64,000 nt of DNA, taken from the NCBI GenBank assembly GCA_944322755.1, contig CALUPY010000010.1, forward strand, positions 1-64,000. Direction: 5' to 3'. This document shows, in pieces, positions 19,860 to 38,932 of the stretch (positions are counted from its first letter, which is position 1; every line of letters begins with the position of its first letter). The DNA comes from Candidatus Gastranaerophilales bacterium (GTDB lineage: Bacteria; Cyanobacteriota; Vampirovibrionia; Gastranaerophilales; Gastranaerophilaceae). The notes under the pieces were generated by a model. The model saw only the letters and a list, made by a program, of their open reading frames with translations, did no database searches and had not been told where the DNA came from. A program made the position numbers and the translations under genes.

Positions 19860-20918
19860 TTAGTTTTTATTATTTTTTCCTCTGAACGTATTAGGTACAG
19901 GCAGCTGTTCTTTTATTGTCGTTTCTTTTTCGAGCGGCTGCATTTCTTTATTCGGGCGATGTTTTTTTGCTTCTTCCTGTGATTCTGGAATAATAAGTGA
20001 TTGCGGAGCTGTATCGGAAGTTTGGAGAATAACATCCGGACATAAATAATCCAAGTCTATAACAAATTCTGTATCCATCGGATTTATAATCAAATCAGAA
20101 AGGTCATACATATCTGATTCGTCCAAAGGATAAAGTTCGTCAAGATATACGGGTTGATTGTCTATATAATAAGCATTAAATATTTTGTCCTGCATTCTCT
20201 TATCGCCGAAGAGTATGTCGTTTACGTCAGGGGGAAGCGGTTCTGTTTTATTTTTGTTTGCTTCAATCTTTTTTCTATATGTTTCGTAATCGGTTTTTAT
20301 CATATCAAGGCCGGCAAGCCTTGCCGCTGCTTCTTTTGAATTTGGATTAATTTTTAAAGCATTTTGATAATGGATTTTGGCTTTTTCCGGTACATCGAGC
20401 TTTTCATAAGTAACCCCGAGTTTATAGTTTGTCCAGAAGTTGTTTTTATAACCGTGTGTGTATGCATGAAGATAAAAGTCTACAGCTTTTGCAAATTCTC
20501 CATCTTTAAAAAATGTTTCTCCAAGATAGTATGTTACTTTAGGATTGTTCTCATTTATATTTAGAGCAATAGAAAGGGCGTTTTTTGCGTCCCTTATATG
20601 ATTTTCATACAGTGCTATTCTTGCTTTTCCGACAAGCGCATCTGTATTAGACTTATCAGCACGCATTGCCTGATAGTAGAAATACTTTGCTGCATTTAGA
20701 TATTTTTGTTCGTCTGCTTTAGTTTTGTTTTTAATAGAATTAAAGTATCTGAGAATTGTATCTGCTTGTTGACAGTACTGTGCAGACGACTGTTTCGGAT
20801 TTTCATTTCCAAATGATATTTCACCATGCCAGAAGTCGTTGTTTTTTGCCATGGCTGTATTTTGAATTAATAAAAAGCAAATAAGAAACGCAAAACAAAT
20901 TTTTTTCATAAGCTTCAA
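19860..20918 (-). CDS. secreted tetratricopeptide-repeat protein
   Basis: 352 residues. N-terminal signal peptide MKLMKKICFAFLICFLLIQN then TAMA, cleavage probably after A24, so periplasmic. Residues about 45-220 hold several TPR units (YYLGETFFKDGEFAKAVDFY, NYKLGVTYEKLDVPEKAKIH). The C-terminal third is acidic and proline/glutamate-rich without a known domain. Divergent from nuoJ over 112 bases. It could serve envelope assembly; partners unknown. Confidence 0.8.
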   Translation of the reverse strand: MKLMKKICFAFLICFLLIQNTAMAKNNDFWHGEISFGNENPKQSSAQYCQQADTILRYFNSIKNKTKADEQKYLNAAKYFYYQAMRADKSNTDALVGKARIALYENHIRDAKNALSIALNINENNPKVTYYLGETFFKDGEFAKAVDFYLHAYTHGYKNNFWTNYKLGVTYEKLDVPEKAKIHYQNALKINPNSKEAAARLAGLDMIKTDYETYRKKIEANKNKTEPLPPDVNDILFGDKRMQDKIFNAYYIDNQPVYLDELYPLDESDMYDLSDLIINPMDTEFVIDLDYLCPDVILQTSDTAPQSLIIPESQEEAKKHRPNKEMQPLEKETTIKEQLPVPNTFRGKNNKN

Positions 20919-21030: not shown

Positions 21031-21549
21031 TTGGTTAGTGCAGAGGCAGTTTATTTTTATATTTATGCAATAATACTGGTAGTCAGTGCTATAGGTGTTG
21101 TTTTTTCACCGCGTATGTTTTTTGCCTTTTGTGCATTCTTTTGTACTCTCCTTTTTTCGTCTTGCCTCTATGGATTGTTGGATGCCGGATTTATGGCTGT
21201 TTTTCAATTCCTTTTGTGCGGTTTATTTTTATGCATAATGTTAATACTGCTTTTAAGAAAAATAACAATCTGGACTTTGCCTTTAAAAATTGCCTCCAGA
21301 TTCAGGGTAGCGCTTTCTGCTGTAGTATTATTTATTTTCGGTATACTTGCATATCTGTATGTGAATTTTGAATTCGGTGGTTCAATCGGAGACTTTTTCG
21401 GCTTTTTAAATGAAAAATCTGTTGATACTGTAGATTTTTCCGGTTTTTCTTTTTCTATACATCTTATGATAATTATAACGATGGTAATGTGTGTTATGCT
21501 GCGCAATATATATTTAACAAAGAATAATACGGAGGACACTGATGACTGA
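21031..21549 (+). CDS. nuoJ: NADH-quinone oxidoreductase subunit J, divergent
   Basis: 172 residues with five hydrophobic segments, the NuoJ layout. TTG start supported by CAGGA about 10 bases upstream. The segment corresponding to the third helix of NuoJ, usually VYAGAIMVLFVF with a key Tyr at a pi-bulge, reads FLLCGLFLCIMLIL, so the Tyr and the small-residue pattern are lost. First gene of the packed nuoJKLMN set; overlaps nuoK by 8 bases. Identified mainly by position before nuoK and by topology, so somewhat less certain on its own. Confidence 0.7.
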   Translation: MVSAEAVYFYIYAIILVVSAIGVVFSPRMFFAFCAFFCTLLFSSCLYGLLDAGFMAVFQFLLCGLFLCIMLILLLRKITIWTLPLKIASRFRVALSAVVLFIFGILAYLYVNFEFGGSIGDFFGFLNEKSVDTVDFSGFSFSIHLMIIITMVMCVMLRNIYLTKNNTEDTDD

Positions 21550-21868
21550 AAGTGTTTTTGAAGTAGGACTTTTGCATTATCTTCTTCTTGCGCTGATTCT
21601 TTTTATCATAGGTATGACTGGGGCTGTTGTTTCAAGGAATATGGTGAGAATCGTAATGTCTCTCTTAATAGTTTCTATATCAATAGTTATAAATTTTTTG
21701 TCTTTCGGGTGTTTCTGTAATGACTCATTAAAGTATACAAATATAATGTGCATATTAATAACAGTTATGACGGTACTTCAGGTAACTGGTGCGTTTGCAT
21801 TATTTTTGAAAGTTTATCATGCAAACGAATATCTTGATGTTGAAAAAATTAAAGACAAGGAGAACTAA
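21542..21868 (+). CDS. nuoK: NADH-quinone oxidoreductase subunit K without its key glutamates
   Basis: 108 residues, three helices. It aligns without gaps to E. coli NuoK over LALILFIIGMTGAVVSRN. The two membrane glutamates of the proton path, E36 and E72 in E. coli, are replaced by Leu42 and by Leu79/Gln80. The tail, VYHANEYLDVEKIKDKEN, matches the normal polar C-terminus, so the protein is not truncated. Its stop overlaps the nuoL start (TAATG). Family membership is clear; normal proton handling is doubtful. Confidence 0.8.
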   Translation: MTESVFEVGLLHYLLLALILFIIGMTGAVVSRNMVRIVMSLLIVSISIVINFLSFGCFCNDSLKYTNIMCILITVMTVLQVTGAFALFLKVYHANEYLDVEKIKDKEN

Positions 21869-23031
21869 TGGAGTTTTGTGTTGAAAATATTAATCTTGTT
21901 GTAATTCTTCCGTTTCTTATGAGCATAATTCTTGCCGCAAACGCCCTAACTATGAGCAGAATTGAGAAAAAACCGATGTTTATTCTTAGTTTATTGTGTG
22001 CAATTATTTGTTTTTTATTCAGCGGCTTTGCTCTTTTTTATGCTTTAAGAACAAATATCAATGTCGAAAGCAGTTTTTTATGGCTTTCTAATGACAATAT
22101 AAATTTCTATATTGGGACTTTGATAGACAGAACATCCTGTATTTTTCTTTGCATTTCGGCAGTGTTAAATATTATTGTACAAATTTTCGGATGGAAAAAA
22201 CTGAGTCCGAATTATTCATATAACAGATTTCTGTTTTATCAAAATCTCTTTATATTTGGTTTGTTCGGAATTTTTCTTGCTTCAAACATTTTTCAGTCCT
22301 ATATGTTCTGTGAAGTAGTGGGTGTTGCGTCATACCTGTTAATCAATTTTGATTTTTCGAATAAAGAAGAATCAAAGGCTGCGATAAAATCTTTTATTTT
22401 TAACAGAATCGGTGATCTTACGCTTTTGTTCAGTGTTTTAACGATTTTATATTTTTCTGTTACATACAATCAATTATGGGACAGCACAAATCTTGCTTTC
22501 TCAAATATGATGCAGGTTGCTGAAAGCATAAATTCTCTTATGAGTGAACCGATATTTGTCGGATTTTGTTCGGTGCTGATTTTTGTTGTACTGATGAAAT
22601 TTATGCAGGCATTTATTTATTTAACATTTGTATCAAAAATTACATCTGCAGAGGCAAGAGTCATCTTGTTTCAAAATGCATTGATATTCTTATCCGGAAT
22701 ATTTCTGCTTTTAAGGTTCACTCCGTTTTTTGTGAACCTTGGTGGAAGCTGGATATGGACAATTCTGATAATAGTGTTTCTTTTTATGTTTATAGGGCTT
22801 TTAAATAAAATATTCATACCTGTGTGCAGATTAATAGGCTGGTTTGAAAAATATGTTGTTGATACATTTTTGAATTTTGTTGAACTTGTAATCCGTTTCT
22901 TTTCATTTTTCTGCTGCCGTTTTCAGGGCGGAGGGATTCAGTTGTATCTAATATATTCGTTCATCGGCTTATTACTGATACTCGGATTTATTCTTGTGTT
23001 TTACTTTACTGTTGCAAATATAGGAGTCTAA
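21868..23031 (+). CDS. nuoL: NuoL-like subunit with large internal deletion
   Basis: 387 residues against about 600-650 for NuoL. Residues 1-288 match the first eight helices: E149 (E144 in E. coli) in FCEVVGVASYLLINF, FNRIGD at 178-183, K244 aligned with K229, then SGIFLLLRF. The usual WLPDAM-GPTPVSALIH block is lost (H254 aligns to Q269). The next part of NuoL, helices about 9-14 with DIKRVLAYST, the HxxTHAFFKA block and the distal lysine, is absent. Residues about 295-387 resume with the C-terminal end: WFEKYVVDTFLNFVELVIRF, RFQGGGIQLYLIYSF. The frame is uninterrupted, with a start overlapping nuoK and a stop 1 base before nuoM. Confidence 0.8.
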   Translation: MEFCVENINLVVILPFLMSIILAANALTMSRIEKKPMFILSLLCAIICFLFSGFALFYALRTNINVESSFLWLSNDNINFYIGTLIDRTSCIFLCISAVLNIIVQIFGWKKLSPNYSYNRFLFYQNLFIFGLFGIFLASNIFQSYMFCEVVGVASYLLINFDFSNKEESKAAIKSFIFNRIGDLTLLFSVLTILYFSVTYNQLWDSTNLAFSNMMQVAESINSLMSEPIFVGFCSVLIFVVLMKFMQAFIYLTFVSKITSAEARVILFQNALIFLSGIFLLLRFTPFFVNLGGSWIWTILIIVFLFMFIGLLNKIFIPVCRLIGWFEKYVVDTFLNFVELVIRFFSFFCCRFQGGGIQLYLIYSFIGLLLILGFILVFYFTVANIGV

Positions 23032-23032
23032 T

Positions 23033-24556
23033 ATGAATTTTCTTTCGCTTATAACCCTGATATTCGCCCCGATAGCCGCAGCTTTGCTGATTTTGATACC
23101 TAAATTTCCAAATCATCAGGTAAAAGTCAGACGCTTTGCAAAGGCTTTTGCCAGTCTGCATTTTATTTATGCAATGCTGTTTCTTGTGTTTTTTGATACA
23201 GGCTTGTACGGCATGTCTTATGAAAAAGAGCTGACTTTTTTCAATATCAGCTGGCTGAAATCGATGGGTATCAGCGCAAAATTTGCAGTAGACGGTATTT
23301 CTTTGCTCCTTGTCATATTAACATCGTTTATTGTATTAATAACTTTTGTACTGAGCAAAATGCATATAAGAACAAAACACAAGCTGTATTACTCAATGGT
23401 ATTCCTTTTTGAATCAGCAATTCTCGGGATTTTATGTGCAAAAGATATGTTTATGTTTTTTGTATTTTGGGAATTGTCTCTTATTCCTCTGTATTTCCTG
23501 ATATCCCAGTGGGGAAATTCAGAAGCGAGAAGCGCCGCAATGAAATTTACTCTCGCTTCTTTTACGGCAAATGTTTTCCTGTTTTTCGCTATGCTGATTC
23601 TATATTATTACAATTTTGCAGTAAGTAATGTTTTAACAGCGAATATTGAATCCCTTAGTATGGATGAAAGCATTTATCCTATGTGGTTTCAGATGCTGGT
23701 TTTTATAAATTTCTTAATTGGTTTTATAATACGCGTGCCGTTTGTGTTCTTCCACTCCTGGTATCCTGATATACAAAGCAAATCCTGTGCACCAGTGAAT
23801 ATACTCGTTTCGGGAACACTTCTTTGCACCGGTGTATATGGTTTAATCCGATTTAATCTTCAGATATTTCCGGAAATTTTTAAACTTTTTGCGCCTGTTC
23901 TAATGTGCTGGGGTGTAGTAAACATAATATATGCCGGTGCACTATCAATTATTCAGCCTGAGATAAAGAAAATTGCAGCATATGCGCAGATATCGATGAC
24001 AGGGTTCGTTATGATAGGATTGGCTTGTTTAAACCAGGTCGGTTTTAATGGTGCAGTATTTATGACACTGGCGCTTTCTATTGTCTTTACCTCATTATAC
24101 GCGATTATTTCGTCTGTTCAGTTCAGAACAAAGACTACTTATTTAACTGCGCTGGGTGGACTTGGGCAGGTTATGCCCAAATGCATGTATTTTGCTTTAA
24201 TAATATGTTTTGGAGCAATAGGAGTGCCATTTTTGATTACATTTGCCCCTAAATTAATGATACTATCAGGTGCAATACTATCCAATCTGGAAGAGGAGTT
24301 GATGGTAAAAATTGTCGCAATAACAGGACTTCTTGCGATAATTTTTGCTTCAGGCTATATAATGTATCTGTTCTATAAAGTATTTTGTTCGGTTTTGTTA
24401 GAACAGTGGAAGAGACTGAAAGATTTAAGTCCTCAGGAAATGAGTGTAATGACTGCACTTTGTCTGGTTATAATATACTTTGGAGTGTATCCGATGTCTG
24501 TTATTCAAATTTATCAGTCAGTTTCAAATTATTTGTTAGATATATTACAGGTGTAA
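23033..24556 (+). CDS. nuoM: NADH-quinone oxidoreductase subunit M, altered axis residues
   Basis: 507 residues, normal length, about 14 helices. Recognised by FAVDGISLLLVILT, FFVFWELSLIPLYFLISQWG (E147) and VPFVFFHSWYPD. Central-axis residues differ from E. coli NuoM: K234 is R234, K265 is C265, the helix-11 His region reads FMTLALSIVF without His, and E407 is K407 in GVPFLITFAPKLMILSG. Such changes would be expected to alter or abolish antiporter-like proton transfer. It starts 1 base after nuoL and ends 10 bases before nuoN. Confidence 0.85.
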   Translation: MNFLSLITLIFAPIAAALLILIPKFPNHQVKVRRFAKAFASLHFIYAMLFLVFFDTGLYGMSYEKELTFFNISWLKSMGISAKFAVDGISLLLVILTSFIVLITFVLSKMHIRTKHKLYYSMVFLFESAILGILCAKDMFMFFVFWELSLIPLYFLISQWGNSEARSAAMKFTLASFTANVFLFFAMLILYYYNFAVSNVLTANIESLSMDESIYPMWFQMLVFINFLIGFIIRVPFVFFHSWYPDIQSKSCAPVNILVSGTLLCTGVYGLIRFNLQIFPEIFKLFAPVLMCWGVVNIIYAGALSIIQPEIKKIAAYAQISMTGFVMIGLACLNQVGFNGAVFMTLALSIVFTSLYAIISSVQFRTKTTYLTALGGLGQVMPKCMYFALIICFGAIGVPFLITFAPKLMILSGAILSNLEEELMVKIVAITGLLAIIFASGYIMYLFYKVFCSVLLEQWKRLKDLSPQEMSVMTALCLVIIYFGVYPMSVIQIYQSVSNYLLDILQV

Positions 24557-24566
24557 ATGGAAGATT

Positions 24567-26027
24567 ATGATAGAAAGTATTAATGGAATAGTGAATGATA
24601 TATTAAATGCATATTTGCCTGAGAGCATAATTATTATTTTTATATTATTTAGCTTAACAGCCTCTTTGTTTTTTAATACCTCATTGTATAAACTTTCTAA
24701 ATGGTTTACGCTTTTCGGTATTACATTGGCTTTGGGGTCAACATTTTTTCTTCCGATAGACCCTGATAATATGGAAATTTTTGCCTTCAACGGAGAAATC
24801 GTTTCCAGTATTTATACTATATTTTTTAAAATTCTCATATTAATGAGTGCTTTTTTTCTTACATTGTTGTCCCGAAATCTTATTAGAGAGAAAAGAGACA
24901 GGGCTTTTGAGTATTTTACTGTGTTTTTATGTGCAGTGTTATTTGCAATGTGTACTGTCAGTGTAACTAATTTTGCAGGATTGTTCTTTGCTTTTGAAGG
25001 GTTGGGGTTGTGTAGTTTTTTACTTTTGAATTTTTCTAAAAAAACTGACGCAAAACAATTGAGTTTCGGGTATTTCGTACAGGGCAATGCAGCAGCTTTT
25101 TTATTTTTATTCGGGATTTCTTATTTATACGGTTTATGCGGACAAATAAGTTTTTCGGGCGTGAGTGATTATCTTGCACAGACGGATTCAATAGTTCTCT
25201 TAACGTTTGCTTTTATTCTAATATTATGCGTATTTTTATTTAAACTGGGTATTGTTCCGTTTTCCAGCTGGGTTGCGGATACATTTGAAGGTGCCGGTTA
25301 TCCGATAGCTGCATTTATGTCAACTATTCCGGTGTTGGCAGGGTTCGGGATATTATCAAGACTGCTGCTTGTGTTTATGAATTACCTTCCGGTATTAAAG
25401 ATTTTGTTTATATGTATTGCAATGTTAACAATTCTTTTCAGTGCATTGAGTGCAATACGTCAAACTACAGTCAAAAGACTAATGGCTTATAGTATGAGCG
25501 TACAGTCCGGCATAATGCTGTTGGGACTTAGCGTTTTTTCTGTCTTTAGTCTTTCGGGTGTTTTATTTTACCTTCTTTGTTATATGTTTGTAAATATAGG
25601 CGTATGGGCCGCCATTATCCTATTTTATGATTCATGTAAGCGGGATAATATAGAGGATTACAATGGTTTAATTTTTCACAGACCATATTATGTAATTGCA
25701 TTTACTACAGTATTGATTGCGCTCGCCGGATTGGCTCCGACCAGCGGTTTTGTTGCTAAATTATATCTTTTCTCTGCAGTTGCAAGAGCGGGTTTTTTGT
25801 TCCTTCCGTTTTTGATTATTTCTATGCTTGCGTGTGTAATTATGATATTTGCATATTGGAAGCTTATCCGTTCAATGTTCAGGCGGGTTGACACAGAAGT
25901 ATCTATTGATACAAAAATAGTATCCTCAAAATTTATTTTGTATGCCTGTGCTCTGGCATCTATTTTACTATGTATTTTTGCGGATAAAATTATTCAGCTG
26001 TGCCAATCTGCTGCGTACTACTTGTAA
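24567..26027 (+). CDS. nuoN: NADH-quinone oxidoreductase subunit N
   Basis: 486 residues, normal length. FAFEGLGLCSFLLLNF (E144), FLFKLGIVPFSSWVADTFEG (K226, equivalent to K217), SAIRQTTVKRLMAYSMSVQS and LIALAGLAPTSGFVAKLYLF (K398, equivalent to K395) are kept. The lysine equivalent to K247 is V256 and the PFHxW His is Ser. It is the most conventional of the five subunits. Its stop is 1 base from the fliR stop on the other strand. Confidence 0.87.
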   Translation: MIESINGIVNDILNAYLPESIIIIFILFSLTASLFFNTSLYKLSKWFTLFGITLALGSTFFLPIDPDNMEIFAFNGEIVSSIYTIFFKILILMSAFFLTLLSRNLIREKRDRAFEYFTVFLCAVLFAMCTVSVTNFAGLFFAFEGLGLCSFLLLNFSKKTDAKQLSFGYFVQGNAAAFLFLFGISYLYGLCGQISFSGVSDYLAQTDSIVLLTFAFILILCVFLFKLGIVPFSSWVADTFEGAGYPIAAFMSTIPVLAGFGILSRLLLVFMNYLPVLKILFICIAMLTILFSALSAIRQTTVKRLMAYSMSVQSGIMLLGLSVFSVFSLSGVLFYLLCYMFVNIGVWAAIILFYDSCKRDNIEDYNGLIFHRPYYVIAFTTVLIALAGLAPTSGFVAKLYLFSAVARAGFLFLPFLIISMLACVIMIFAYWKLIRSMFRRVDTEVSIDTKIVSSKFILYACALASILLCIFADKIIQLCQSAAYYL

Positions 26028-38680: not shown

Positions 38681-38932
38681 ATGGCAGTAGAACAATTGAC
38701 AACAGTAACAGGCAGTCTTGCAGATATCGGTGCAGGTTTGGCTATCGGTTTTGGCGCAATCGGTGCAGGTTTAGGTATCGGTGTTGCAACAAAAGGACTT
38801 TTGGAAGCCATTTCAAGACAACCGGAGATTGCTGGTAAAGCAGTAGGTTTCTTCCTTTTAGGCGCAGCTCTTGCTGAGGCTTGTGCTATTTACGGCTTGT
38901 TTATCGCTATGAAATTAAGCGGTATGATTTAA
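38681..38932 (+). CDS. atpE: ATP synthase F0 subunit c
   Basis: 83 residues, two helices. The ion-binding carboxylate is E66 in GAALAEACAIYGLF; the loop RQPE at 46-49 contacts gamma/epsilon. Helix 1 reads GAGLGIGVATKG with Ile33 where many carry Gln, and E66 is followed by Ala rather than Ser/Thr. Both argue for protons rather than sodium as the coupling ion. Confidence 0.96.
   Translation: MAVEQLTTVTGSLADIGAGLAIGFGAIGAGLGIGVATKGLLEAISRQPEIAGKAVGFFLLGAALAEACAIYGLFIAMKLSGMI

Follow-up and report, generated by a model that had tools for sequence, protein, structure and literature searches.

A probable headless complex I, reduced to the NuoJKLMN membrane arm, in Gastranaerophilales

The Gastranaerophilales are non-photosynthetic relatives of cyanobacteria. 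Gut Melainabacteria have been credited with an 11-subunit, proton-translocating complex I (PMC3787301; see also PMC6349859). The concatenated tree in a phylogeny of the melainabacterial complex required at least seven annotated subunits per genome (PMC8235220), and because of that threshold genomes of the JKLMN type described here would have escaped examination; text searches of the open-licence literature gave no account of JKLMN or AHJKLMN as a set standing on its own. The locus lies in a stretch of 64,000 nucleotides from a Gastranaerophilales genome, referred to here as the window. With the EFG-less 11-subunit complex I of Melainabacteria and Cyanobacteria (NDH-1) it has homologous JKLMN subunits, gene order and a flanking TPR gene in common, but whereas relatives of the same GTDB family own the whole A-D, H-N set, the window locus is without A, B, C, D, H and I, its NuoL is halved, and the proton path is interrupted in L, M and N.

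Several redox-free systems invite comparison. Mrp antiporters are likewise built from NuoL-, NuoM/N-, NuoK- and NuoJ-like subunits, but the JKLMN set appears to be derived secondarily from complex I, contains three antiporter-like subunits where Mrp contains two, and lacks both the TM8 lysine in L, M and N and the MrpA-C carboxylate. Engineered, isolated Nqo12 and Nqo13, which conduct protons down a gradient (PMC11496545), are also antiporter-like subunits without a redox arm; JKLMN is, in contrast, natural and multi-subunit, and it bears a middle-lysine loss of the kind that abolishes conduction in that system, where replacement of the middle Lys or the terminal Glu of isolated Nqo13 blocks proton conduction (PMC11496545). 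The E. coli NuoM E407K variant, which assembles and pumps about 1.5 H+/e- (PMC9271201), carries the TM12 substitution found here, but within an otherwise intact, pumping complex I. DAB complexes (DabA with the NuoL-like DabB) share with JKLMN a NuoL-like subunit that works without redox chemistry. Judged from its genes, the JKLMN set is the membrane arm of a complex I that has undergone secondary reduction.

Gene content of the locus and the absent redox module

The features of the locus, and one further gene of the window, are as follows.

19860..20918, minus strand: divergent TPR gene flanking nuoJ (synteny, TPR domains)
21031..21549, plus strand: nuoJ, 172 aa, very divergent (PF00499 15.5 bits, below cut-off; NCBIfam NuoJ models weak; in order at 29/29 loci)
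21542..21868, plus strand: nuoK, 108 aa (PF00420 38.7 bits)
21868..23031, plus strand: nuoL, 387 aa, truncated in frame (two profile matches, AlphaFold model, Foldseek/VIA)
22765..22800, plus strand: nuoL junction at which about 250 codons (TM9-TM15) are missing (profile gap 302-554)
23033..24556, plus strand: nuoM, 507 aa, full-length open reading frame, the gene of the initial annotation
24567..26027, plus strand: nuoN, 486 aa (TIGR01770 246 bits over full length, below the curated cut-off of 332.6)
38726-38911, plus strand: F-type ATP synthase c subunit

The window's NuoM, used as query against GTDB genomes, retrieved 28 loci, which together with the window represent 29 species. Most of the 28 are titled as Gastranaerophilales MAGs, the others as "uncultured bacterium" and one as "uncultured Clostridia"; the contig of this last one (L057) carries a JKLMN locus of the window's clade and is probably a mislabelled Gastranaerophilales MAG. 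At all 29 loci the gene set is nuoJ-K-L-M-N only, in identical order. An assembly or sequencing artefact was ruled out, as species from separate bins show the same features.

The genes of the redox module were searched for genome-wide. NuoH (PF00146), NuoD (PF00346) and NuoB (PF01058) gave zero hits in seven genomes that are 98-99.97% complete (that of the window, G000, and its clade mates G033, G064, G092, G005, G072 and G098), with positive controls, and NuoA (PF00507) gave zero in all 11 genomes of the JKLMN clade tested. The possibility that these four subunits are encoded on other contigs was thereby ruled out; NuoC and NuoI were not found at the JKLMN locus. The window's genome, which is 99.97% complete, encodes three PF00361 proteins, all of them at the nuo locus. 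Assignment as a functional complex I or NDH-1 was rejected on the missing NuoB/D/H core, NuoA and TM8 residues. Group 4 hydrogenases (Mbh/Ech/Ehr) were ruled out by the zero count for the NuoD/NuoB-like catalytic pair in G000, and a DAB complex or DabA partner by the zero count for PF10070 in 10 genomes, with positive controls in two. Identity as Mrp was ruled out on the missing TM8 Lys and MrpA-C carboxylate and on the restriction of PF00361 proteins to the three nuo ones; MrpB, E, F and G are absent from the JKLMN locus. Some clade members (G043, G055, G082 and G019) possess a separate Ehr/Mbh-like cluster that is absent from the window's genome; in G043 (C9:84000-94385) it comprises NuoD-, NuoB- and NuoH-like genes and two antiporter-like genes.

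In several intact operons the TPR gene that flanks nuoJ here adjoins nuoA, likewise divergently, an arrangement indicating that nuoABCDHI were deleted in place at the TPR-flanked site. The TPR protein was rejected as a new nuo partner, since it is present in nearly the whole family, including nuo-less genomes, and serves as a synteny marker only. It has a likely signal peptide and adjoins nuo genes in many nuo-bearing genomes; in genus g1 its C-terminus has been extended by some 70-120 residues. The F-type ATP synthase c subunit in the window makes it very probable that a membrane gradient exists.

Residues of the proton path in the remaining subunits

The NuoM frame scores 354 bits against TIGR01972 (cut-off 263.8), PF00361 matches NuoM with 152.7 and NuoN with 175.4 bits, both above its cut-off, and the phmmer alignment with E. 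coli 3rko_M is unbroken across the motifs. In alignments with solved NuoM/NdhD sequences and with relatives, R234, C265 and K407 of the window face K234, K265 and E407 of E. coli. The axis codons, all on the plus strand, and their state among the 29 species and the 23 intact, redox-module-bearing relatives are listed here.

23471..23473: Glu147 (E. coli Glu144, TM5); invariant, 29/29
23732..23734: Arg234 (E. coli Lys234, TM7); Arg 29/29, Lys 23/23 in intact relatives
23825..23827: Cys265 (E. coli Lys265, TM8, the middle proton carrier); Lys 0/29, Lys 23/23 in intact relatives
24074..24076: Leu348 (E. coli His348, TM11); His 0/29, His 23/23 in intact relatives
24251..24253: Lys407 (E. coli Glu407, TM12); Lys 28/29 and Arg 1/29, Glu 23/23 in intact relatives

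The three substitutions and their coordinates had been given correctly in the initial annotation, as had the missing histidine of helix 11. Position 265 is occupied by Asn in 14 species, Ala in nine, Cys in three, Ser in two and Ile in one. Across the 29 species, the variability of sites 265, 322 and 348 exceeds that of 96-99% of NuoM sites, while 234 and 407 fall among the conserved columns: two sites are now held at a new residue, and the other three have been released from constraint. His322 (TM10), which is Met in the window, was discarded as a marker of head loss, as the site varies in intact relatives too; likewise, 75 newly fixed NuoM sites were set aside as evidence of a new function, the clade being only moderately diverged.

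A full-length family profile matches NuoL in two pieces (2-301, 203.9 bits; 555-628, 46.0 bits). The second inverted repeat (TM9-13) is deleted, while the first repeat (TM4-8), the lateral helix HL and TM16 are kept; the missing stretch, TM9-TM15, includes Lys342 and Lys399. Built on an alignment of 32 sequences, an AlphaFold model (mean pLDDT 80.8, pTM 0.74; a single-sequence fold reached pLDDT 52) predicts TM1-8, one helix (295-354) continuing into the lateral helix, and a last TM helix, and its best structural matches by Foldseek and VIA-align are NdhF/NuoL (VIA Z about 30). NuoL measures 384-387 aa in 29/29 species, and this short form is confined to genera g1, g6 and g20 (29/383 genomes of the order). 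A clear link to the periplasm is apparent, in both Mrp and complex I, for the NuoL-type subunit alone (PMC7419157); the half of NuoL with the TM12 exit site is the deleted part. The window's NuoL retains E149, D183 and K244 (Glu144, Asp178 and Lys229), and His254 of TM8, which presumably stands in for Lys (PMC7419157), is Gln in 29/29 (Q269 in the window).

NuoN retains E144, K226 and K398 in the window (E. coli E133, K217 and K395); across the clade Lys395 is kept in 29/29, and Glu133 and Lys217 in 27/29 each. Its TM8 residue Lys247 has become Val or Pro in every species (V256 in the window), and K158 is G168 in the window. With L His254 (to Gln), M Lys265 (to Cys, Asn, Ala, Ser or Ile) and N Lys247 all replaced, each in 29/29, the helix-8 protonatable carrier is absent from all three antiporter-like subunits; the charges retained on the M-N core are the TM5 Glu, TM7 Lys (Arg) and TM12 Lys.

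Two NuoK sites and one of NuoJ were read in the same way.

21665-21667, plus strand: NuoK L42 codon, facing Glu36; Glu lost in 29/29 (alignment)
21779-21781, plus strand: NuoK Q80 codon, facing Glu72; Gln in 29/29 (alignment)

NuoK had been invoked earlier in support of the loss of pumping. Glu72 was discarded as a marker of head loss, as it is also missing from several intact relatives. MrpA-C Glu706 corresponds to the position of the conserved NuoJ Tyr59 (PMC7419157), at which no carboxylate occurs in the 29 species (Cys in 26, Phe in two, Ser in one).

Constraint on the genes and head loss among relatives

All 145 frames (five genes in 29 species) are open and of normal length, whereas under simulated neutral drift of 0.25 substitutions per site nuoM would collect about 14 stops. 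Divergence relative to RpoB in the JKLMN clade versus intact complexes is 4.14 versus 4.35 for NuoM and 5.81 versus 5.06 for NuoN; for NuoL it is 7.67 versus 5.10 and for NuoK 7.92 versus 4.58, about 1.5-1.7 times faster. Nei-Gojobori dN/dS values in genus g1 are 0.027 (NuoM), 0.046 (NuoN), 0.055 (NuoL), 0.135 (NuoK) and 0.216 (NuoJ), with 0.022 for fliR as a scale; synonymous sites are saturated, so that these values are indicative only and the RpoB-normalised rates are preferred. By these measures the JKLMN membrane arm is still under purifying selection, with NuoM and NuoN constrained as in a working complex and J, K and L less so.

The commonest operon among complex-I-bearing relatives is A-B-C-D-H-I-J-K-L-M-N. 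Exactly A-H-J-K-L-M-N, a whole membrane arm from which B, C, D and I are missing, stands at the locus in g17 (G016, G052 and G079), g9 (G046 and G008) and G081. The G081 locus (C22:6000-25000) encodes a NuoL of 478 aa, and its genus, g19, is shared with the full-operon genome G018; B, C, D and I disappeared from it recently. Genus g36 (L115-L119) has fast-evolving L-M-N loci with traces of J and K and no A or H; its NuoM has a gap at the TM8 Lys, and the TM12 residue is Lys or Arg. Many sister genera are without any nuo genes. In an RpoB tree the JKLMN genomes form one clade (97/98) and the headless groups are not joined together; well-supported branches require that the "full" state changed three times or more, with a complete loss among these changes. 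From this single-gene tree and G081, the peripheral arm is read as having been lost separately at least three times, and probably five.

Tabulated across these genomes, intact complexes keep essentially every axis site and headless ones do not. NuoM Glu407 is gone in 14/14 headless genomes of this table and NuoN Lys247 in 13/13 with a readable NuoN; the JKLMN clade, G016 and g36 (with Lys or Arg) each arrived independently at Lys in NuoM 407.

Possible roles of the remaining membrane arm

The initial annotation had argued from the NuoM and NuoK residues against standard proton translocation. That conclusion holds, but the NuoM residues are not the strongest reason for it: because E. coli E407K still pumps, K407 alone is no proof of pump loss, and K234R keeps the charge. 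Stronger evidence lies in the absent redox module, the loss of the second channel half of NuoL and the loss of the helix-8 carrier from L, M and N.

We consider it likely that the locus encodes a headless complex I: a redox-free JKLMN arm whose pump has been dismantled and which is kept for another, redox-independent job. Deletion of nuoABCDHI, as synteny and the genome-wide absence of A, B, D and H indicate, would have left a NuoJKLMN membrane assembly in which the missing quinone/Fe-S module would make redox-driven proton pumping impossible. The helix-8 carriers are gone along with the second inverted repeat and the periplasmic exit half of NuoL, while the scaffold, comprising whole NuoM and NuoN, the NuoL lateral helix and TM16 clamp and the TM5/TM7/TM12 charges, remains. 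Such an assembly would be made and stable, and its retention with all five membrane genes intact in 29 species suggests that the leftover half has another job. It would form a sealed membrane complex that uses a gradient to drive transport along a different path, or else acts in a structural or regulatory capacity. Gradient-driven movement of an ion or solute outside the canonical proton path is a tentative first choice for this job, and a structural or regulatory scaffold with the buried charges as salt bridges seems nearly as plausible; some other role is a lesser prospect, and a regulated proton leak slighter still.

A relic in slow decay, in which redox loss ended the function and J to N are vanishing with no new role, is the rival to be taken most seriously, though we think it unlikely. 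It would account for the raised rates and scattered axis residues of headless g9, g17, g36 and G081, for the sister genera that have lost all nuo genes, which imply dispensability over longer times, and for a barely recognisable NuoJ and fast NuoK and NuoL. It is at odds with NuoM and NuoN rates against RpoB that are as slow in the window's clade as in intact complexes, with five frames in each of 29 species and a NuoL held to 384-387 aa in all of them, and with the new residues fixed at NuoM 234 and 407, where neutral drift would instead have given many stops. An Mrp-like secondary cation/proton antiporter powered by an ion gradient is more doubtful. The subunits do correspond (NuoL to MrpA-N, NuoM/N to MrpD, NuoK to MrpC and NuoJ to MrpA-C; PMC7419157), the TM5 Glu, TM7 Lys/Arg and TM12 Lys are retained, and the ATP synthase gene argues for a gradient, but the TM8 Lys/His is gone from L, M and N together with the second half of NuoL, and NuoJ has Cys where MrpA-C has Glu706.

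A proton leak or relief valve, which would be a natural case of the proton-conducting isolated antiporter modules, takes its appeal from the engineered Nqo12 and Nqo13; since conduction in that system stops once the middle Lys, which is missing here, or the terminal residue is removed (PMC11496545), it is improbable. Least probable, by a little, is an ordinary complex I whose redox subunits are encoded elsewhere, diverged or replaced, and which still pumps protons. The Ehr/Mbh-like cluster with NuoD-, NuoB- and NuoH-like genes in G043, G055, G019 and G082 could supply such subunits, and E407K alone is compatible with pumping (PMC9271201); but the window's genus, G005, G072 and G098 are without any NuoB, D or H relative, the helix-8 residue is gone from three subunits with half of NuoL deleted, and middle-Lys loss blocks Nqo13 conduction (PMC11496545).

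If the headless reading is right, metabolic reconstructions that assume a proton-translocating complex I of 11 subunits (PMC3787301) would be wrong for the JKLMN clade, and the locus would, on a balance tipped slightly in favour, represent a naturally occurring "engine-less" complex I and with it a membrane complex of a new class. How redox chemistry is coupled to protons in complex I, and which subunit is the proton exit, are still disputed. The relatives offer a natural series: the full complex; a full but axis-decayed one (G037); headless A-H-J-K-L-M-N; headless JKLMN with half a NuoL; and complete loss. Along it, the residues that appear to depend on the redox engine are the TM8 carriers, NuoK Glu36 and NuoM Glu407, and those independent of it in the window's clade are the TM5 Glu, TM7 Lys/Arg and TM12 Lys. 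Since G052 has lost the head and retains NuoM Lys265, NuoM His348 and both NuoK glutamates, the series suggests that head loss precedes axis decay. This order is not universal, because G037 keeps its Fe-S ligands but has a decayed axis; it is apparently a head-bearing, pump-decayed complex. Its locus (L081, C48:222000-240000) encodes an 11-gene complex I with all tested Fe-S cysteines present and with E144M, K234R, K265N and E407A in NuoM, K247Q in NuoN, and E157S and D213Y in NuoH. The second His of the HPxxHG quinone motif is missing from its NuoD, and in the RpoB tree G037 is sister to the headless genus g36.
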